Shown in pieces: positions 6,536 through 33,202 of a stretch of 64,000 nt of DNA. Origin of the DNA: Natronococcus sp. A-GB1 (GTDB taxonomy: Archaea > Halobacteriota > Halobacteria > Halobacteriales > Natrialbaceae). How positions within the stretch are numbered: the first letter of the stretch is position 1; every line of letters starts with the position of its first letter. Below the pieces are notes generated by a model. The model saw nothing but the letters and a program-made list of their open reading frames with translations, was not told where the DNA came from and ran no database searches. The stretch spans positions 1-64,000 of the forward strand of contig NZ_JARUKW010000014.1 in the NCBI RefSeq assembly GCF_029688845.1. The letters run 5' to 3'. A program made the translations under genes and the position numbers.

Positions 6536-7459
6536 TCAGCTCGATCCCCACCGCCTGACCGCGGCGACCTCCTGACCGATCGCGCGACGCTTTACGAGGA
6601 CGAACCCGCAGGCGATCAGCGCGAACCCGGCGACCGTCGCCGCGTCGATCACCTCGCCGAGGTACAGCCAGCCGACGATCGCCGTGAACACCGGGGCGAC
6701 ATAAGAGACCATGTTGATCTCGACGGCGCCGAGTCGCTCGAGCAGATCGAAGTACAGCAGAAAGCCGAGCGCGCTCGCGACGAGCGAGAGGTACGCGAGC
6801 GCGCCGATCGCCTCGAGATCGGCCCAGGCGGCCGGCTCGATCGGTTCGCGGAGGCCGAGGCTCACGAGGTGCATCAGGGCGGCCCCGCCGAGCATCGACC
6901 AGGCCTCCATCGTCTCGATCGGCAGATCGGCCTCGAGTCGCCTCGTGAGGACGCTGCCGAGCGCGAACGCCGCGGCCGCACAGAACACCAGCAGCTTCGC
7001 GACGGCGTCGGTCGCGAACAGGTTCGACGGGTCGGGCTGGACGACGACGCCGACCCCGACGAGGCCGACGCAGACGCCGGCGACGCCGACGGCCGACAGC
7101 GCATCCGACGGAACGAGCGCCCGCGCGAACCCGGTCGTCAACACCGGGGAGAGGCTCACCAGCACCGCCGCGGCGGCGGCGGTCGTGTGTTGCTGGCCGA
7201 CGAAGAGAAAGACGTGGTAGGCACCGATCAACAGCGCCGCGCCGACCGTGACGGTCGCCCACTCCTCGCGCCCGGTGGGTCGCCAGTGATCGACGGCATA
7301 GATCGCGTACCCGAGCATCACGACGCCCGCGATGTCGTAGCGAAGCGCCGCGAACAACACCGGTGGAAAGTGATCGAGCCCCGCACTGATCGCGACGAAC
7401 GAACTACCCCAGGCGGCGGCAAGAACCAAGAAGAGAGCGAGATTTCGGTAGCGGCTCAC
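6536..7459 (-). CDS. EamA/DMT-family transporter
   Basis: 307 aa with ten predicted transmembrane segments arranged as two EamA repeats. The N-terminal signature includes AAAWGSSFVAISAGL and LRYDIAGVVMLGYA. The second repeat carries ALAYLSLVASALGFLLYF and a GEVIDAATVAGFALIACGF segment. Members of the drug/metabolite transporter superfamily export metabolites or drugs across the cytoplasmic membrane; the substrate cannot be read from sequence. The start is GTG at 7459, giving MSRYRN before the first helix. The Arg/Ala-rich short tail after the last helix is ordinary. Confidence 0.88.
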   Translation of the reverse strand: MSRYRNLALFLVLAAAWGSSFVAISAGLDHFPPVLFAALRYDIAGVVMLGYAIYAVDHWRPTGREEWATVTVGAALLIGAYHVFLFVGQQHTTAAAAAVLVSLSPVLTTGFARALVPSDALSAVGVAGVCVGLVGVGVVVQPDPSNLFATDAVAKLLVFCAAAAFALGSVLTRRLEADLPIETMEAWSMLGGAALMHLVSLGLREPIEPAAWADLEAIGALAYLSLVASALGFLLYFDLLERLGAVEINMVSYVAPVFTAIVGWLYLGEVIDAATVAGFALIACGFVLVKRRAIGQEVAAVRRWGSS

Positions 7460-7498
7460 GGTCGCCGTTTCGCGGGCGACCTGCTATGCGTTTCGGAT

Positions 7499-7858
7499 CT
7501 ACAGCAGCGGCTTCTCGCGGATCTCCGGCTCCGATTCGGTCTGCTTGAACTGCTCGAGCAGCGGTCGGATGTCGTCAAACCCCTCCGTCAGGACGATATC
7601 GCCGCTTCGGAGGTCGTAGTCGACGATACCGTAATCGGCCAGTCGTGGGAGGTGGTTGTGGATCAGCGAGACGTATACGCGCTGTCTGTCCTCCGAGTCG
7701 ATCGAGCCGTCCTCGCTGCGCTCCCAGGCGGCGATCTCGGAGACGACGTCCTCGAGGTTTCCCCGCCGCGTCTCGGCTAGCTGGTAGAGGAGGTACCGAC
7801 GCTCGGACTCGGCCAGCAGCGAACAGGCAGCTTCCATACGAGATGGGGTCTGCGTCAT
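7499..7858 (-). CDS. DUF7344 haloarchaeal winged-helix-type regulator
   Basis: 119 aa from the ATG at 7858 (MTQTPSRMEAA). The core has the DUF7344 pattern: LLAESERRYLLYQLAE, then VVSEIAAWE, then RVYVSLIHNHLPRLADYGIVDYD. This is a winged-helix-like fold common in haloarchaea and presumed to regulate transcription. A second, divergent member of the family lies at 24016-24429. Upstream (7879-7888) is the perfect palindrome TGTAATTACA, a candidate operator. A longer start at 7933 would add a basic segment spanning the palindrome and is less likely. Confidence 0.75.
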   Translation of the reverse strand: MTQTPSRMEAACSLLAESERRYLLYQLAETRRGNLEDVVSEIAAWERSEDGSIDSEDRQRVYVSLIHNHLPRLADYGIVDYDLRSGDIVLTEGFDDIRPLLEQFKQTESEPEIREKPLL

Positions 7859-7878
7859 ATCTGAGGGAAGCCGCCATT

Positions 7879-7888
7879 TGTAATTACA
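7879..7888. promoter_or_regulatory. Palindrome TGTAATTACA upstream of the DUF7344 gene
   Basis: A perfect 10-bp AT-rich palindrome about 20 bp before the start codon in otherwise GC-rich DNA. It could be an operator or part of the promoter. There is no further evidence. Confidence 0.35.
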
Positions 7889-7944
7889 CCTGCTGCCAAA
7901 ACGGTTTGGGCCGAGCGAGTGATACTCTCGCATTCGGCTGCTCG

Positions 7945-7951
7945 AAAAAAA
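7945..7951 (-). terminator. T-tract terminator of the dpp operon
   Basis: On the minus strand seven consecutive T residues occur 12 nt after the dppF stop codon. Archaeal RNA polymerase terminates at such T-runs. It is the only long T-run near the end of the operon. Confidence 0.6.
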
Positions 7952-7963
7952 GTGGACGGCCGA

Positions 7964-9564
<1,601 letters not shown>

Positions 9565-9568
<4 letters not shown>

Positions 9569-10842
9569 CGCCGCTCACCCCCCGAGCTCTCGACGGTCGA
9601 CTCTGCCCGCTCGGGCTGGACGTCGTCCTCGAACCCGTCGGGGTCGGCGTGTTTGTCGACCGCCGTCCGGTCGTCCTTCCCGAAGTAGTCGGCCGACAGT
9701 GCGCGCGCCTCGGAGTACTCCTGGGTTGCGAGGACACAGCGCACCTCGTGTTCGTCGGTACCCCTCCCCTCGTACTCCGGAGGATGAGAGAGGCAGTCCT
9801 CCATCGCCTTCGGACAGCGATCCGCGAAGTAACACTGATCCGGCATCTCGTGGTCGAGCAGGCTCGGCACGTTGCCCGGAATCGGCTCGAGTCGATCCCC
9901 TGCACTCTCAAGGTCAGGAATCGACCCGAGCAACCCCTCAGTGTAAGGGTGGACGTGGTCGTCGAAGACGTCTTCGAGCGTGCCCCGCTCGACAATCTCG
10001 CCGGCGTACATGACGCCGACGCGGTTGCACATCCGGGCGACGACGCCCAGGTTGTGCGTGATCAGCAGGATCGTCATGCCGGTCTCGTCCTGTAAGTCGT
10101 CGAGCAGGTCGAGCACCTGGGCCTGGATCGTTACGTCCAGAGCCGTCGTGGGCTCGTCGGCGACCAGGATGTCGGGCTCGCCGGCCAACGCCTGAGCGAT
10201 CATCGCCCGCTGGAGCATCCCCCCGGAGTACTCGTGGGGGTACTCGTCGGCCCGCTCGACGGGGTCGGGGATGCCGACTAGCTCGAGCAGTTCGATCGCC
10301 CGCTCGCGGCTGGCCTCGCTGACGTACTTCTTCGAGGGTAACACCGTCGAGAGCATGAGCGTGCCAAGCGAGTACTCCTGGGTCTTCGCCCGTGTCGACC
10401 GGGGGTTCGCGCTCGCCCGCTGTTGGACTTCGACGGCCTCGGCGATCTGTTCGCCGACGGTGAGGCTCGGGTTGAAGCTGCTTTCGGGATCTTGGAAGAT
10501 CATGCTGAACGACGAGCCCCGAAGCGACCGCCGGACCCGCTTTGGCACCTCGAGCAAGTTCACGAACGAGCCGTCGACGGCCTCGGGGTGGTCGCCGGCG
10601 ACCGCCTCGGCGAGGTCGGGTTCGTTGAACCAGATCTCGCCATCGGTGATCTCGCCCGGCGACTCGATGAGGTCGATCACCGATCGGGCCGTGACGCTCT
10701 TCCCGCTGCCACTCTCGCCGACGATCCCGACCACCTCGCCCCGTTCGATCCGGAGGTCGAGGTCCGAGACCGCGTTTACCTGTCCCTGTTCCGTGAAGAA
10801 TCGCGTCGATAGTCCGTTTACGCGGAGAATATCCTCTGTCAT
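9565..10842 (-). CDS. dppD: Peptide-type ABC transporter ATP-binding protein (DppD-like)
   Basis: 425 aa from the ATG at 10842, preceded by GGAGG with ~11 nt spacing; an in-frame GTG at 10851 sits too close to that ribosome-binding site. It has Walker [10 protein letters not shown]-loop [12 protein letters not shown], signature YSGGMLQR, Walker [11 protein letters not shown] and an H-loop in LLITHNLGV. The C-terminal OppD/DppD motif with the RCPK cysteines ([14 protein letters not shown]) is intact. An extra ~45-residue segment rich in charged residues follows the Q-loop ([14 protein letters not shown]). The carboxy-terminal ~60 residues are a charged extension. The start lies one base after the permease stop. 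Confidence 0.92.
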
Positions 10843-10843
10843 G

Positions 10844-11842
10844 TTAGGCACCCCCTCCTTCGCCCTCGATGTTCGGATCTAGCGAGTCCCGGAGCCAGTC
10901 ACCGAGGAGGTTGATACTGATCACCGACAGCACGATCCCGATTCCGGGGACCGTCGAGACCCACCAGGCCGTTCGGAGGTAGTCCTGGCCCTGCTGGATC
11001 TCGTACCCCCACGAGAGGGTCGTCCCCGAAAAGCCCAGGTACGACAGCGAACTCTCGAGGAGAATGATCGCGGCGACCTGAATCGTCGCGAGCACGATCA
11101 CCGGCGTCAGGCTGTTCGGCAGCACGTGTTTGAGCAGGATCGTTGCGTTGCTCGCGCCGAGGCTACGCGCGGCCTTGACATACTCCTCGTTGCGGATCGC
11201 CATCGCCTCCCCGCGGGCGACCCGGGCGAACCACACCCACGTGACGAGCCCGACCACGACGGTTATCGTCCCGGGCAATATCGTCGCCGAGGGCATCCCC
11301 TCGGCGAAGCCGGCCGTCACGATCGGGTCGGGGACGGGTATCGACATCGAGCCGAACACGCCGATCAGCGCCAGCGCCAGCACGAGCGACGGGAACGCGA
11401 GCATGACGTCCGCGACGCGCATCATTGCGTCGTCGACCCGGCCCCCATAGTAGCCGGACACCAGCCCGAACGGGACGCCCATCACCACCGCGAGCCCGGT
11501 TCCGAGTATCCCCACGAGTAGGGAGGTGCGGGCGCCGTACAGTAGCCGCGAGAAGACGTCCTGTCCGACGTTGTTCGTGCCGAGGTAGTGGTCGGTCGAG
11601 TACTCGACCGAGTAGGGCTCGCGCTCGCCGTCGACGACCTCGTAGGAGTCGTAACTGGTCCCTATCGGTGGGTAGGAGTTGCCGTCGTCGAAGTGGCCCG
11701 TCGTGTTGGGGTTGTGCGTCGCGAGGACGGGAGCGAAAAGCGCCATCAACACGACAACGACGAGGATCGCGAGCCCGAGTTTCGGAAGCAGGTTTCGCCG
11801 GAACTCCTGTCTGAGGTTAGATTTGATTCGGTCCGAAATCAT
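10844..11842 (-). CDS. dppC: Peptide-type ABC transporter permease (DppC-like)
   Basis: 332 aa. An N-terminal transmembrane anchor (LGLAILVVVVLMALFAPVLATHNP) is typical of OppC/DppC. A periplasm-facing segment follows, then the BPD_transp_1 core of five helices. The EAA-type cytoplasmic loop reads EYVKAARSLGASNATILLKHVLPN, the contact with the ATPases. It forms the membrane channel with DppB. The start overlaps the dppB stop by four bases (ATGA). Confidence 0.93.
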   Translation of the reverse strand: MISDRIKSNLRQEFRRNLLPKLGLAILVVVVLMALFAPVLATHNPNTTGHFDDGNSYPPIGTSYDSYEVVDGEREPYSVEYSTDHYLGTNNVGQDVFSRLLYGARTSLLVGILGTGLAVVMGVPFGLVSGYYGGRVDDAMMRVADVMLAFPSLVLALALIGVFGSMSIPVPDPIVTAGFAEGMPSATILPGTITVVVGLVTWVWFARVARGEAMAIRNEEYVKAARSLGASNATILLKHVLPNSLTPVIVLATIQVAAIILLESSLSYLGFSGTTLSWGYEIQQGQDYLRTAWWVSTVPGIGIVLSVISINLLGDWLRDSLDPNIEGEGGGA

Positions 11843-12828
11843 TCGTCTAGCACCCGCGGGTTGAGCTTCGCGTAGATCGCGTCGACGCCGATATTGATGA
11901 TCACGTAGCTAACACCGATGAAGATAATGATGCCCTGAATGAGCGGCCAGTCCAGGTTGTGTATCGCGCTGATGAGCCGCAGCCCGAGGCCGGGCCAGGA
12001 GAAGACGGTCTCCGTGACGACCGCGCCGCCGATCAAGGTGCCAAGCTGCAGTCCCAGCACCGTGATGATCGGAATCATCGTGTTCCGGAGGACGTGTTTG
12101 TACCGGACCAGCGTCTCGGGAATCCCCTTGGCCTCGGTCGCGGTCACGTACGGCTTCCCGTACTCGTCGAGCATACCGCTTCTGGTCAGTCGGGTGATCA
12201 ACGCGGTGAAGTACGTTCCCAGGGTGACCGCCGGGAGGATGATGTGGTGGAGCCAGGTGAGCAGATCGCCGACGTAAAACGTCGTCAGGAACGTCCACAA
12301 GGCGTCGTGGAACGCCACCGGGCGACGGCCCGTCGGGAACACGTCCAGCTGAACGGCCAGCAGCAGGATCAACATGATCCCCAGCCAGAAGTTCGGCGTA
12401 CTGATCCCCAGGAGCGAGAACGACGTCGCACCGTAGTCGGCGGGCTCGTTGCGACGGGTTCCGCTGATGACCCCGAGCGGGATCGCGATCACGAGTGCGA
12501 CGATCGTCGCTGCGATCGCAAGCTCTAGCGTCGCGGGAACGCGCTCTATGACCATCGTTGAGACCGGGCGGCTCGCCTGGTAGGAGTAGCCCAGGTCTCC
12601 AACTAGTAGGTCCTGCAAGTAGTCGGCGTACTGTACGTAGATCGGTTGATCCAGTCCCAGTTCCTGTCGGATCCGTTCACGGGTTGCCTGGTCGACGGCC
12701 GGGTCGACGATCAGGTTGACCGGGTCGCCGGGCGTCACTGCCCGGAGCCCGAACAACACTGTCACGACCCCCCAGACGACGAGGATCCCCTGCAAGGTCC
12801 GCTTGAGCAAGAATTTTCCAAAAGCCAT
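11839..12828 (-). CDS. dppB: Peptide-type ABC transporter permease (DppB-like)
   Basis: 329 aa. The N-terminal helix (LKRTLQGILVVWGVVTVLFGLRAVTPGDP) is the DppB signature. An extracellular segment follows, then the core helices, with the EAA loop PYVTATEAKGIPETLVRYKHVLRN. It pairs with DppC in the membrane. It is the first gene after the binding-protein gene, 112 bp downstream of it, so dppA may be expressed at a higher level by partial termination or processing in that gap. Confidence 0.93.
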   Translation of the reverse strand: MAFGKFLLKRTLQGILVVWGVVTVLFGLRAVTPGDPVNLIVDPAVDQATRERIRQELGLDQPIYVQYADYLQDLLVGDLGYSYQASRPVSTMVIERVPATLELAIAATIVALVIAIPLGVISGTRRNEPADYGATSFSLLGISTPNFWLGIMLILLLAVQLDVFPTGRRPVAFHDALWTFLTTFYVGDLLTWLHHIILPAVTLGTYFTALITRLTRSGMLDEYGKPYVTATEAKGIPETLVRYKHVLRNTMIPIITVLGLQLGTLIGGAVVTETVFSWPGLGLRLISAIHNLDWPLIQGIIIFIGVSYVIINIGVDAIYAKLNPRVLDE

Positions 12829-23752: not shown

Positions 23753-23932
23753 TCAGAACCGGTGGACGTCGACGTCGTCGGACTGACGGTCGGGCTGGCC
23801 CTGGGCCACGCAGTCGGTACACAGCCCCGGTCCCGGCTCGTAGTGTTGTTCACACGTGAGCGTCCCGCAGTTGGCACACCGCTCCTGAGCCGGCTCCGAC
23901 TCACAGATCTGGCAGAGGCCACTGATGCTCAT
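23753..23932 (-). CDS. Small zinc-finger protein (CPxCG-type)
   Basis: 59 aa read from an ATG at 23932 to TGA at 23753, too short for routine ORF calling. The sequence has CQIC, CANC, CEQH and CTDC, i.e. two pairs of zinc-binding knuckles in B-box-like or CPxCG-like spacing. An Asp-rich tail ends in VDVHRF. Haloarchaea encode many such zinc micro-proteins, some with roles in biofilm and motility, but none can be inferred here. It is probably co-transcribed with the downstream 92-aa protein gene. Confidence 0.75.
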   Translation of the reverse strand: MSISGLCQICESEPAQERCANCGTLTCEQHYEPGPGLCTDCVAQGQPDRQSDDVDVHRF

Positions 23933-24015: not shown

Positions 24016-24429
24016 TTACGGGCTCGCGGCCTCGAGTTCGTAACAGCGCTCGAGCAGCGTCTCGAGTTCGTCGCCGACCGTGGACCATCTGACGGTTCCG
24101 CTCCGCTGGTCGTACTCGATCAGTCCCCGATCCGCCAGTTTCGGGAGGTGGGTGTGATAGAGGTCGATCAGTAGCCGCTCCCGATCGTCGGGGGAAACCC
24201 GTTCGGCAGGGACTGATACCTCGCGAGCGGCGATCGACGTTGCCAGCGACTCGATGCTCGCGACCTCCGTTTCGGAAAGGCAGTAGAGTACGTCGCGTCG
24301 TCGCCGGCTACTGAGAAGCGAGAGGGACTCGTCCACCGACGATCGCTGCCCACCGACGGCGGGTAGTTCGACATCCGATTCGGCCGTCGTAGCGTGGTCC
24401 TCTCGGTCTTCCGAGCGATAGTCGACCAT
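24016..24429 (-). CDS. DUF7344 haloarchaeal winged-helix-type regulator
   Basis: 137 aa. After a ~35-residue acidic, unstructured N-terminus the DUF7344 core follows: SLLSSRRRRDVLYCLSE, LATSIAAREVSVP, then RERLLIDLYHTHLPKLADRGLIEYDQRSGTVRW. It presumably regulates transcription. A TATA-like TTTATTAACG on the minus strand (24455-24464) about 26-35 nt upstream suggests a short or absent leader. It is divergent from the HalOD1/DUF7504-protease operon and shares a 187 bp AT-rich region with it, so it may regulate that operon. Confidence 0.78.
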   Translation of the reverse strand: MVDYRSEDREDHATTAESDVELPAVGGQRSSVDESLSLLSSRRRRDVLYCLSETEVASIESLATSIAAREVSVPAERVSPDDRERLLIDLYHTHLPKLADRGLIEYDQRSGTVRWSTVGDELETLLERCYELEAASP

Positions 24430-24616
24430 ATATCTGTCCGAACTCGACCGACGTTAATAAACTTGCTAGAGAGCTGTTACGCTGGAACGTACGAAATCAA
24501 TACAAAAACTAGCCTGGAAAATTAAATAAATTTGCTTATTTCTGACTTAGTATTATTCTCAGAAGTTGCATAACATCCGCGAGCTTTTCCTAAGCGACCG
24601 TCGTACCCGGTGACGG
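24430..24616. promoter_or_regulatory. AT-rich divergent promoter region
   Basis: Positions ~24455-24575 are far richer in A/T than the surroundings. On the minus strand TTTATTAACG is a TATA candidate for the DUF7344 gene. On the plus strand ATTAAATAAATTTGC (~24520-24536) and a second AT-run near 24548 precede the HalOD1/DUF7504 gene. GGTGACGG just before 24617 supplies a weak Shine-Dalgarno. Confidence 0.5.
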
Positions 24617-25840
24617 ATGACGAACGACCGATCCCGGAACGAGGCCGGAGTCGACGAGAGAGACGGAACAGCCCCCGGGATCCGGTCTCGTCCGAGTATC
24701 TCGATCGTCGAACGGGTCGCGGACGGAACCGATCGGTCCCCCCTCGAGTTGCCGCCGTTAAACGAGACGGTAGACGTCGACGCGCTCGACCGACTGCTTG
24801 AAGCCGACGATCCGGACAGTCCGTGGCCGACCGTCGTCTTCCGGTACGCGAACCGCCGGGTTCGGGCGACCGCCGACGGAGTGATCGAGCTCACGAACCC
24901 GGATGAGACCGACGTCTCCGCCATCGACGAGTGGACTCACGTCTCGATCGTCGCGGAACCCGACGAGCGAGCCGTCGCAGTACGCATCGCGTCGGCCATC
25001 GCGAGTCGATCCGGTTGGAATCGGGACCGAGTACGGACGGCGATCGAAGACGTGATCGATCCGGACGCACTGGCCCGCCTCAGCCAGCAGCGGGAGAACG
25101 GGATCTCGCGCCCCGGCGCGACGGTCTTATTCTCGGTGCTCGGCCACGACGTCGTCGTCGACCCCGGTGGGACGGTCAGCGTTGGCTCCACGCTCGGACG
25201 GCTGAAGCGAACGGGCGGGAACGTGCTGATCGCCGGCGGCGTCCCCGACGACCTCGTCGACCTCGCCAGCGCGAACCTCCTCGGCGATCCCGACCGAAAC
25301 CGCCGTCACCTCCTCGCGCTGCTCGATCGCGACCGACGGGTCGTCTCCGATCGACTGGCGCCGACCGACGTCGCATCGGCACAGATCGTCGACTACGCGA
25401 TGACCGCACGTTCGGTCGCGTCGGCGGGAGCGCCCGTCGCCGACGCGGTCGCTGTCGTCGACGAACCCACCGATCTCGACGAACTCGAGAGGACCGTCGA
25501 TGCACGGATCCGCGCGTTCGGAACCGAAACACGCCTCTCCGAACCCGGAGACCTCCGGCTCTGTATCGACTCGCTGCGGCCGATGCTCGACGAGCGCGGG
25601 ACCGACGGCACCGTCGCCCTCCTCGAGCCGATCTGCGAGGCGGTCCGGGACGTCTCGGGACTCGGCCACTACGTGTTGCCGGTCGACCGCGACGAGCCCC
25701 TCGTCGACGCTCTCGAGTCGCTGTTCGACGCGACCGTCGAACTTCGCGTCGGCGACTGCGGTCCCCAGCAGCGCTGGCACCTCCACGAGAGCGGGTATAC
25801 GACCGCCTGGATCGGACTCGCCCGATCCGACGAACGATGA
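24617..25840 (+). CDS. Tandem HalOD1 / DUF7504 signalling protein
   Basis: 407 aa, soluble. Residues ~28-93 form a HalOD1-like module (SISIVERVADG, DVDALDRLL, VVFRYANRRVRATADGVIEL). Residues ~118-190 form a second one (VAVRIASAIA, VIDPDALARL, ATVLFSVLGHDVVVDPGGTVSVG). Residues ~200-400 match DUF7504, a haloarchaeal family resembling a KaiC/RecA fold without nucleotide-binding motifs (NVLIAGGVPDDLVDLASANLL, LRLCIDSLRPMLDE, GHYVLPVDRDEPLVDALESLFDATVELR). HalOD1 is regarded as an output domain. The stop overlaps the start of the caspase-like gene (ATGA), so the two are translationally coupled. The exact biochemical role is unknown. Confidence 0.75.
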   Translation: MTNDRSRNEAGVDERDGTAPGIRSRPSISIVERVADGTDRSPLELPPLNETVDVDALDRLLEADDPDSPWPTVVFRYANRRVRATADGVIELTNPDETDVSAIDEWTHVSIVAEPDERAVAVRIASAIASRSGWNRDRVRTAIEDVIDPDALARLSQQRENGISRPGATVLFSVLGHDVVVDPGGTVSVGSTLGRLKRTGGNVLIAGGVPDDLVDLASANLLGDPDRNRRHLLALLDRDRRVVSDRLAPTDVASAQIVDYAMTARSVASAGAPVADAVAVVDEPTDLDELERTVDARIRAFGTETRLSEPGDLRLCIDSLRPMLDERGTDGTVALLEPICEAVRDVSGLGHYVLPVDRDEPLVDALESLFDATVELRVGDCGPQQRWHLHESGYTTAWIGLARSDER

Positions 25841-27906
25841 CCGCCGATCCGAGGTTCCAGCCGTTCGACGACGGCGCCGGACTCACCGTCGTCGATCCGA
25901 TCGAAAACAGGCAGTGTCCGTTCCGAACCGACGACCCGGTCTCGCCCCGGTCGATCGAACCCTCTGGATTCTCCCGCCCCGTCGACGGCGCCGTCGAGCT
26001 GACGGCTTCCGAACTGGTCTTTCCGTACGTCGTCCCCGTGTACGTCCGCGACCCGACCGGCGAGATGTTGCTCGAGACCGACTCCTGTGCCTACGAACGG
26101 CTCCCCGAGGGAGAGTACGTCCTCGAGCTGATGGCCCCGATCCAGCTCTACGTTCGCGTTCGGAGCCCGGTGACGATCGCGTCGGCCGACGACCGGCTGG
26201 CGTTCGACTTCGGCGAGTCGACGACGGTGGGTCTCGGGGCGCGGTCGCGACACGAACGCCCCGCCGCCATGGTTACGACGACGGCCGAGCCGGCGGACCT
26301 GGCACGTGCCGTCTCGACGTTCGGCTCGGCGTTGAAGACCCACAGCTGTGATCGCTCGCTACCGTCGCTTCGGGGCCACCCGCCCCGACTGGAGCTGGGG
26401 TCGGCGGTTCGAATTCCGTCGGCAGTCGAAACGCCCGACTCGGGCGTCCGCCTCGTCGTCCCCCCGGACCGGTCGGCGATCTACGCCGCTAGCCCGCTTG
26501 CGTACTACCTCGCGGCGACGGTCGAGACCGGGCCGGACCCGCGGATCGAAACCGAGGACGGATTCGTCCATTCGCTCGGAGACACGACCAACGCCGTCGT
26601 CAGATCGATCGAACGCGTGCTCGAGCAGGTGTTCTTCGTCGACTGCGTGGCCCGGACGGAGGGGCTCTACCGGGTCGATCTCCACGAGCGTGATCGGTTC
26701 GAGGAGCGATTCGATCTCGCGCTCGACGACCTGTACGAGGCCGAGCTCGCCGACCGGCTCGAACCCGTCCTCTCGATTCCGTACGACTCGATCGCGGACC
26801 TCCTGCCGCGGTGGAACCTCGTTACGCACGCGACAGCCGAACCGGAGAACGCGACCGTGCTTCCCTACCTCGCCGACGAGCTGTCGATCGTACGACCGGC
26901 ACCCGAAGATCGGTCCGGGACCGACCCGACCCCGCCCACCGCGCTCGCGATAGACGAGTTCACGCGTTCTCGCGCGGGAGTCGACCGGGGGGCGGAGTTT
27001 TCGTACGTCTCCCCGCCGCCGACCGACGCCTTCGGCCAGGCATGGCTGGGCGAGGGCGTCCCGATCGGCGCGACCAAGCTCCTGCGAAGCGCCTTCGAGA
27101 ACGGACTCGAGCGCTCATCCTCGGGCGACGCCGTCGAGGTAGCGATCGTCTGCAACGACCCCGAGATGGCCGCGGAGTTCGATACGACCGACGGCACCCT
27201 CTACGGGGAGCGCGAGAAGCTCCCGTTCGAGGTGACGGTACACAGATCCGTCTCCGCCGAGGAGCTCCGGGAGCTGTTCGCGGCCGACCTCGACTTCCTC
27301 CACTACGTCGGCCACGTCGAGAACAGCGCCTTCGTTTGCTCGAATGGAGTGCTCGAGGCGCGAGCGCTGGCCGACGTCGGCGTCGACGCGTTTCTGATCA
27401 ACGGCTGTCGATCGTACGACGTCGGCGTTCGTGTGATCGAACGGGGCGGCGTCGGCGGCGTCGTCACGCTCAGCGATGTCGGTAACCGGGACGCGATCGC
27501 CGTCGGCCGCCTCGTCGCACGGCTGTTGAACAACGGGTTCTCGATCCGGGACGCGACCTCGATCGCCCGCAGTCAGCGCCTCGTCGGCAACCAGTACACC
27601 GTCGTCGGAGACGGAAGCATTACTGTCGGCCAGGCCGGTAGCGGAGTCCCGAACACCGCCCGGATCGAACCGATCGGCGACGGCGAGCGCCGGCTGCGAC
27701 TTGAGCTTCACCACGTCGATAGCGGACCCGGCGCCCAGTACGTCCCCTACATCGACGGCGTCGATCGGCACTTCCTCGCGGGCACCGAACTCCCGCCAAT
27801 CGACGTCTCCGGCGGAGCACTCTCGCGGTTCCTCAGGCTGGCGGAGATTCCGGTCCGCTGGGGGGAAGAATGGTACTGGTCGACGGACGATCGGTTCGTC
27901 TGGTAA
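25837..27906 (+). CDS. Caspase-like (CHAT-type) cysteine protease candidate
   Basis: 689 aa. The C-terminal third has a clan CD-like core: LFAADLDFLHYVGHVENSAFVC gives a beta strand ending in H-Y-V-G-H (His489, His493), then VDAFLINGCRS places Cys524 after a second strand, then GVGGVVTLSDVGNRDAIAVGRLVARLLNNGFSIRDATS, the region that follows the catalytic Cys in CHAT proteins. Residues 1-~430 are an unrecognised, mostly beta-rich acidic region, and ~570-689 form another beta-rich region. No transmembrane segment is seen. It probably cleaves a partner protein in response to the coupled HalOD1/DUF7504 gene product. Activity is an inference from the His/Cys pair. Confidence 0.65.
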   Translation: MTADPRFQPFDDGAGLTVVDPIENRQCPFRTDDPVSPRSIEPSGFSRPVDGAVELTASELVFPYVVPVYVRDPTGEMLLETDSCAYERLPEGEYVLELMAPIQLYVRVRSPVTIASADDRLAFDFGESTTVGLGARSRHERPAAMVTTTAEPADLARAVSTFGSALKTHSCDRSLPSLRGHPPRLELGSAVRIPSAVETPDSGVRLVVPPDRSAIYAASPLAYYLAATVETGPDPRIETEDGFVHSLGDTTNAVVRSIERVLEQVFFVDCVARTEGLYRVDLHERDRFEERFDLALDDLYEAELADRLEPVLSIPYDSIADLLPRWNLVTHATAEPENATVLPYLADELSIVRPAPEDRSGTDPTPPTALAIDEFTRSRAGVDRGAEFSYVSPPPTDAFGQAWLGEGVPIGATKLLRSAFENGLERSSSGDAVEVAIVCNDPEMAAEFDTTDGTLYGEREKLPFEVTVHRSVSAEELRELFAADLDFLHYVGHVENSAFVCSNGVLEARALADVGVDAFLINGCRSYDVGVRVIERGGVGGVVTLSDVGNRDAIAVGRLVARLLNNGFSIRDATSIARSQRLVGNQYTVVGDGSITVGQAGSGVPNTARIEPIGDGERRLRLELHHVDSGPGAQYVPYIDGVDRHFLAGTELPPIDVSGGALSRFLRLAEIPVRWGEEWYWSTDDRFVW

Positions 27907-27913
27907 GGACGGC

Positions 27914-28063
27914 TTACCAGGTGCCGCCGCCGTTGCCGGCGATCCCGACGTCCGCCGCGGCCGTTCCGACCTGCGAGAGCAGGAGGCAGGTCGCGAACAG
28001 GGCGCCGATCAGTCGTGGATGCTCCGCGAGGAACGTCCGTAACATGTCGTTGTTTGAGGGCAT
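27914..28063 (-). CDS. DUF7503-like hydrophobic micropeptide
   Basis: 49 aa from the ATG at 28063. It has a short polar N-terminus (PSNNDMLRTFLAEHPRLIG), one hydrophobic helix (ALFATCLLLSQVGTAAA) and a Gly/Asn tail (GNGGGTW). This matches my recollection of DUF7503, micropeptides often found beside DUF7504 genes. It could be a secreted peptide after cleavage at TAAA or a single-span membrane peptide. It is convergent with the protease candidate, with 7 bp between the stops. A longer start at 28171 would add a non-hydrophobic stretch that does not fit. Confidence 0.6.
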   Translation of the reverse strand: MPSNNDMLRTFLAEHPRLIGALFATCLLLSQVGTAAADVGIAGNGGGTW

Positions 28064-32848: not shown

Positions 32849-33202
32849 TTATCGACGTGGTTCCGGCCGACGGGTTTCGGCGGGCGGGTAGATGACGATG
32901 TCGCCGTTGGCGTAGACGTACACCTCGTGCTCGAGGGCCGTGAAGGCGATGTGGCCGCCGGTGCGCTCGGTGCCGTCGGCTTTCGGCCGGAAGATCCGAT
33001 CGAGGGCATCGGGATCGATGCTGTCGTACAGCGAGAACTCCCCCTGGGAGACGTCCGTGTCCGCGATCGACGCGAGCGCGTGGACGATCGTTGCGGTCAG
33101 CGTCGCCGTATCGTCGTCGTCGTAGTGGAAGACGTAGCGGTCGTCGCCCTGTTCGTACTGGAGTTCGCCGCTCTCGTCTCTTGATGTGGACTCAGTTTGC
33201 AT
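32849..33202 (-). CDS. Single-domain HalOD1 protein
   Basis: 117 aa. It contains one HalOD1 module: VFHYDDDDTATLTATIVHALASIADTDVS, EFSLYDSIDPDALDRIF and GHIAFTALEHEVYVYANGDIVIYP. This matches the output modules in the larger protein at 24617-25840. The N-terminus is acidic and disordered. It could be a diffusible output component of a haloarchaeal signalling system. A good TATA box, GCTTTTATA, lies on the minus strand at 33249-33257, giving an estimated 5' leader of ~20 nt. Confidence 0.8.
   Translation of the reverse strand: MQTESTSRDESGELQYEQGDDRYVFHYDDDDTATLTATIVHALASIADTDVSQGEFSLYDSIDPDALDRIFRPKADGTERTGGHIAFTALEHEVYVYANGDIVIYPPAETRRPEPRR

Follow-up and report, generated by a model that had tools for sequence, protein, structure and literature searches.

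The closest described relatives of the locus reported here are the CHAT proteases (PF12770), among them Craspase Csx29 and the SAVED-CHAT proteins, with which it shares the fold, the order of the strands, an invariant His and Cys and a regulator partner. Bacterial CHATs serve in defence, and the bacterial CHAT–gasdermin pairs resemble our locus in having a CHAT protease encoded beside a possibly membrane-seeking protein. Gingipains and separase are specific for Arg and cleave themselves after Arg; they have a prodomain or, like separase with securin, a dedicated inhibitor. It has been stated that archaea lack clear caspase homologues. Strong caspase-like activity, with no known gene and a preference for Asp at P1 (LEVD, IETD), has been described in Haloferax volcanii (PMC3615174). 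In the literature searched, outside which most subscription papers lie, the terms ‘CHAT domain’ and ‘haloarchaea’ never occur in one paper, DUF7344, DUF7503 and DUF7504 are not named at all, and we found no description of the micropeptide pairing, the shared tail or the linker motif presented below.

The window, that is, the whole stretch of 64 000 nucleotides analysed from Natronococcus sp. A-GB1, contains four genes that a sequence-only reading had grouped into a protease-signalling module. All four are real and lie where that reading put them, with open reading frames that give clean translations, and Pfam agrees with the domains proposed. They are a winged-helix-like DUF7344 gene (24016..24429, minus strand; E 1e-24), which is divergent; a 407-aa protein composed of two HalOD1 stretches (E 4e-26) and a DUF7504 domain (E 5e-42; 24617..25840, plus strand); a predicted CHAT-like (clan CD) cysteine protease of 689 aa (25837..27906, plus strand), the start of which overlaps the preceding gene by ATGA at 25837–25840; and a 49-aa DUF7503 micropeptide (27914..28063, minus strand; E 5e-17). 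The micropeptide gene converges on the protease gene, and its stop at 27914 lies 7 nt past the CHAT stop. Two further genes were observed nearby: one for a zinc-finger-like protein of 59 aa that gives a B-box-like match in Pfam (23756–23932, minus strand), and a stand-alone HalOD1 gene about 5 kb downstream of the module (32852–33202, minus strand). Several Natronococcus loci have such a HalOD1 gene at a comparable distance.

Neighbour counts were made on the 79 named loci of Halobacteria. A DUF7503 gene is present on the opposite strand just past the CHAT stop in 69 of them, and in 47 the CHAT gene is preceded by a DUF7504 gene of the same orientation; this part of the proposed four-gene module is supported. 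The other part found no such support. DUF7344 is divergent upstream of the CHAT gene in only 18 of the 79 loci and near about one-third, too few for a core partner, and is probably a lineage-specific regulator. HalOD1 is often absent, since many partners, in Haloferax and elsewhere, consist of DUF7504 only (about 235–260 aa), and was therefore rejected as the core sensor. HalOD1 and DUF7344 are lineage-specific extras.

Of 41 related genomes, 36 encode homologues of the 689-aa protein, mostly more than one (1–11 copies per genome), and the family comprises at least 79 named loci in Halobacteria. It spans the Halobacteriales, Haloferax species included. The window protein itself has no match in Pfam or NCBIfam, and a search of PDB sequences with single proteins and with a profile gave no relevant match. 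Three relatives (L112, L113 and L114) do exceed the Pfam CHAT cut-off, and the first of these (G031:C23) matches the window protein with an E value of 5e-116. Nearly all CHAT matches in the sampled Halobacteriales genomes have the protein size of this family. NCBI already labels a few plasmid-borne members ‘caspase family’ or ‘CHAT domain-containing’ protein, so the protease fold has not gone wholly unnoticed.

Both motifs on which the sequence-only reading had based its protease assignment, H-Y-V-G-H (His493) and N-G-C-R-S (Cys524), are present. In an alignment of 74 homologues with a mean column identity of about 45 per cent, H489, G492, H493, N522, C524 and S526 are invariant, which at this level of identity exceeds chance. 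In the predicted structure, the putative catalytic histidine, His493 (27313..27315, plus strand), follows the strand formed by residues 485–491, and the predicted catalytic cysteine, Cys524 (27406..27408, plus strand), follows the strand formed by residues 516–522. The AlphaFold2 model obtained from the 74-sequence alignment is confident (mean pLDDT 88, pTM 0.89) and, analysed with DSSP, shows the catalytic domain with the His behind strand 3 and the Cys behind strand 4, as in clan CD. All strong structural matches in the PDB belong to this clan: gingipain RgpB (Z 18.9), DdvA (17.1) and separase (16.9), with SAVED-CHAT (16.1) and Craspase (14.7) as further matches. Because of the model, these matches and the relatives that pass the Pfam cut-off, we classify the 689-aa protein as a divergent CHAT protease, a predicted fold that is well supported. 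It differs from CHAT PF12770 in being too divergent for Pfam, in lacking a TPR or SAVED part, in having its own beta-rich N-terminal region with the strongly conserved motif SALKTxxxERSxPTLRGHPP, and in its paired micropeptide.

The micropeptide, whose place was underrated in the sequence-only reading, is the most constant partner of the protease. Of the 59 DUF7503 genes in the 41 genomes, 57 are convergent with a CHAT gene, and one of the exceptions lies at a contig end; the pairing is well supported. The order is represented by 19 sampled genomes, 14 of which have DUF7503; it was found in none of the 101 others in the phylum sample. The window peptide consists of a hydrophobic helix and the short Gly-rich tail GNGGGTW. 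In 74 aligned DUF7503 peptides, Pro20 and Arg/Lys21 never vary; the hydrophobic helix is conserved, its Gln35 and Gly37 being nearly invariant, and the short tail is rich in Gly and usually ends in GP. Most DUF7503 peptides look N-in/C-out, or even secretory-signal-like, with AxA before the tail. There is one case of two DUF7503 genes side by side on one strand (G078:C1:486534–486796).

CHAT paralogues without DUF7503 often lie opposite another short ORF ending in SxYxGP, and the micropeptides other than DUF7503 that face CHATs have the common C-terminus (Y)xGP. A convergent ORF ending in GP is found within 250 nt of 78 of 149 CHATs, a set enriched in CHATs without DUF7503, versus 0.55 per cent of 14 617 background ORFs. 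The tail of the window peptide and its close relatives (GNGGGTW) and those of several Haladaptatus peptides (GTTIS or GGTIR) have no final GP, and are the same tail minus these two residues. Several members of the SxYxGP subfamily of CHATs have, immediately upstream, a gene for a protein of some 500 aa in which Pfam recognizes no domain (L131:2934–4556; L133:4969–6462 and L134:6261–7751, both minus strand).

The partner in Haloplanus ruber (L080), encoded just downstream of the CHAT gene at 10001–12058, on the minus strand, is a leaderless protein of 13 tandem TADGNSGGISGP units with identical amino acids. Among the codons of these units, 11 of 12 third positions vary and all first and second positions are invariant. 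Because the repeats vary at third positions only, the tail is under selection as a peptide. A leaderless tandem TADGN(S)GG..SGP protein replaces the micropeptide both here and in a Haloplanus MAG, which has two units (L058). Lys and Arg are both missing from the repeat units. A protease specific for Arg would therefore bind these units without cleaving them, and a role as regulator or inhibitor is thereby favoured over that of substrate. Taken across the order, these patterns allow the tentative proposal, which we regard as possible but still rather doubtful, of an archaeal caspase-like protease controlled through a micropeptide tail, (Y)xGP or GNxGxIxGP, present in one lineage as a 13-fold repeat.

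The presence of the micropeptide follows that of the active site. It is found near 113 of the 127 CHATs with both His and Cys, leaving 14 dyad-intact CHATs for which none was found, and near none of the 19 that lost one or both residues. Fisher's p for this association (2.6e-15) is inflated, since the losses represent about two independent events and not nineteen: the dyad-lost proteins fall into about two clades, with His and Cys lost together in two outlying clades, and the association rests on these two events. Because copies that lost the active site lack the peptide too, the pattern suggests that the protease is under the control of its own micropeptide or acts on it. The dyad-lost proteins are possibly pseudo-proteases with another role; those without micropeptide or linker motif are L137, L138, L139, L146, L181, L182, L184, L185, L187–L195 and L197. 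In L138, a GAF–PAS histidine kinase gene (6908–8473, minus strand) lies directly upstream of the dyad-less CHAT gene.

A third feature is lost with the dyad and the peptide. The linker that joins the first alpha/beta half to the CHAT domain, predicted to be disordered (pLDDT <50 at 360–386), contains the motif [FY]xR in 107 of 117 dyad-intact proteins, compared with 25 expected by shuffling (at most 40 in 500 shuffles). The following residue is mostly Ser, Gly, Asp or Ala. The motif is present in one of the 19 dyad-lost CHATs and, where CHATs form tandem pairs, in two of 10 second copies; [FY]xK occurs in only eight proteins. In the window protein, F375-T-R377-S378 (26959..26970, plus strand) lies in this linker, and the enrichment of the motif and its loss with the dyad make R377|S378 a candidate autocleavage site. 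By analogy with gingipains and separase, we read [FY]xR as a candidate site of autocleavage after Arg; alternatively, it could serve in docking and not be cut. At L130 (4370–8778; G000:C1) and at L148–L153, two CHAT genes stand in tandem with a single DUF7503 gene in the middle, and their second copies keep the dyad and mostly lack the linker FxR.

The DUF7504 domain of the 407-aa protein has the fold of the KaiC/RecA-superfamily ATPases (Z 15.8 over 179 residues). Unlike these, it has no Walker A motif in its sequence, and is probably a pseudo-enzyme. R265-S266 (25409..25414, plus strand) is a weak candidate for a substrate site of the protease: R265 is invariant in 42 CHAT-linked partners and lies inside a variable, low-confidence loop, and RS is present at this site in 37 of the 42 linked domains versus seven of 40 unlinked ones (the Pfam DUF7504 domains L199–L238, HalOD1-only matches being left out). 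As Arg is also present in this column in an unlinked DUF7504 subfamily, we dropped R265 as a proven substrate site and keep it only as a lead.

The reading that we favour, with a confidence somewhat short of even, is that the locus encodes an Arg-specific zymogen protease module regulated by a dedicated micropeptide, with DUF7504 as a relay or target. The 689-aa protein would be a cytosolic CHAT-like cysteine protease with the dyad His493/Cys524, synthesized as a zymogen and probably matured by a self-cut that follows the Arg of the linker motif FxR|S/G/D, immediately ahead of the catalytic domain. Its dedicated ligand would be the convergent micropeptide, of which the C-terminal tail, xGNxGxI-S/Y-(GP) or, in the sister subfamily, SxYxGP, would be the part recognized; most likely the peptide would hold the protease inactive or gate it, as securin does separase. 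The micropeptide differs from securin in its length of 40–50 aa and has no evident similarity to it, and its inhibitory role here is a proposal. The KaiC-like DUF7504 protein, fused to HalOD1 in some lineages, might relay a signal to the protease or be its target. The orientation of most DUF7503 peptides is what strains the model of a ligand for a cytosolic protease most, since an N-in/C-out or signal-like leader would put the tail outside the cell; the leaderless forms should be cytosolic.

The same retention of the peptide only beside an intact dyad would be expected if the protease cut the micropeptide to free a membrane-active peptide, for example after the invariant Arg/Lys of [NH]-P-[RK], where the hydrophobic helix begins, making the locus a minimal counterpart of the CHAT–gasdermin pairs. 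The invariant P20 and R/K21 and the nearly invariant Q35 and G37 agree with this, but a hydrophobic helix is missing from both the SxYxGP peptides and the repeat form of Haloplanus, the repeat units offer no basic residue and NPRM is unlike FxR-S/G/D, so we consider such an effector unlikely. The partner here also differs from that of the CHAT–gasdermin pairs in being a peptide of 40–50 aa whose helix is missing in some lineages, and no gasdermin, the kind of partner suggested by the sequence-only reading, was seen among the neighbouring genes examined with Pfam. The rejected view that the convergent ORFs are conserved non-coding 3' elements could appeal to their fixed position beside the CHAT stop. 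It is highly improbable given the codon pattern, with variation at the third positions only in the repeats and free synonymous variation at the GP codons, and DUF7503 is a curated Pfam family.

A short adjacent precursor with a conserved C-terminal tail is also what peptide-pheromone systems have. The last 7–12 residues might be released, possibly secreted, and sensed, with the CHAT protein maturing or sensing them in a layout comparable to the bacterial Rgg–SHP or PlcR–PapR systems. The hydrophobic leader, the AxA, the short tail with its exact C-terminus conserved and the multi-copy repeat precursor speak for such a signal; yet the leader is conserved far beyond the need of a signal peptide and is missing in some peptides, the tail hardly diversifies, and no transporter or receptor is linked, which leaves a peptide signal rather improbable. 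We give as little credence to a toxin–antitoxin or abortive defence system with the protease as suicide effector and the micropeptide as antitoxin. Its multiple copies per genome, the tie between micropeptide and dyad and the part played by bacterial CHATs in defence would fit. However, PADLOC gave no match for the protease, the DUF7504 protein or the micropeptide, and for the DUF7344 protein only a weak one to Csa3 (E 0.016); no relatives were found in viral contigs, and the family is broadly present across the order.

The Asp preference of the H. volcanii activity contrasts with the Arg suggested by the linker motif, and for this reason we raise the link between that activity and the present family as a question and not as a claim. 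H. volcanii, included as a control, carries DUF7503, which suggests a CHAT partner there. Haloferax is a genus with good genetics, so the question of the protease is directly testable, as is now the role of DUF7503 and DUF7504, two Pfam families whose function is unknown. The Halobacteriales possess an order-wide family of predicted caspase fold with an invariant dyad, a micropeptide as its specific partner and a predicted site of cleavage. If the proposed control is true, this would possibly be the first peptide-signalling or securin-like control circuit in Archaea.
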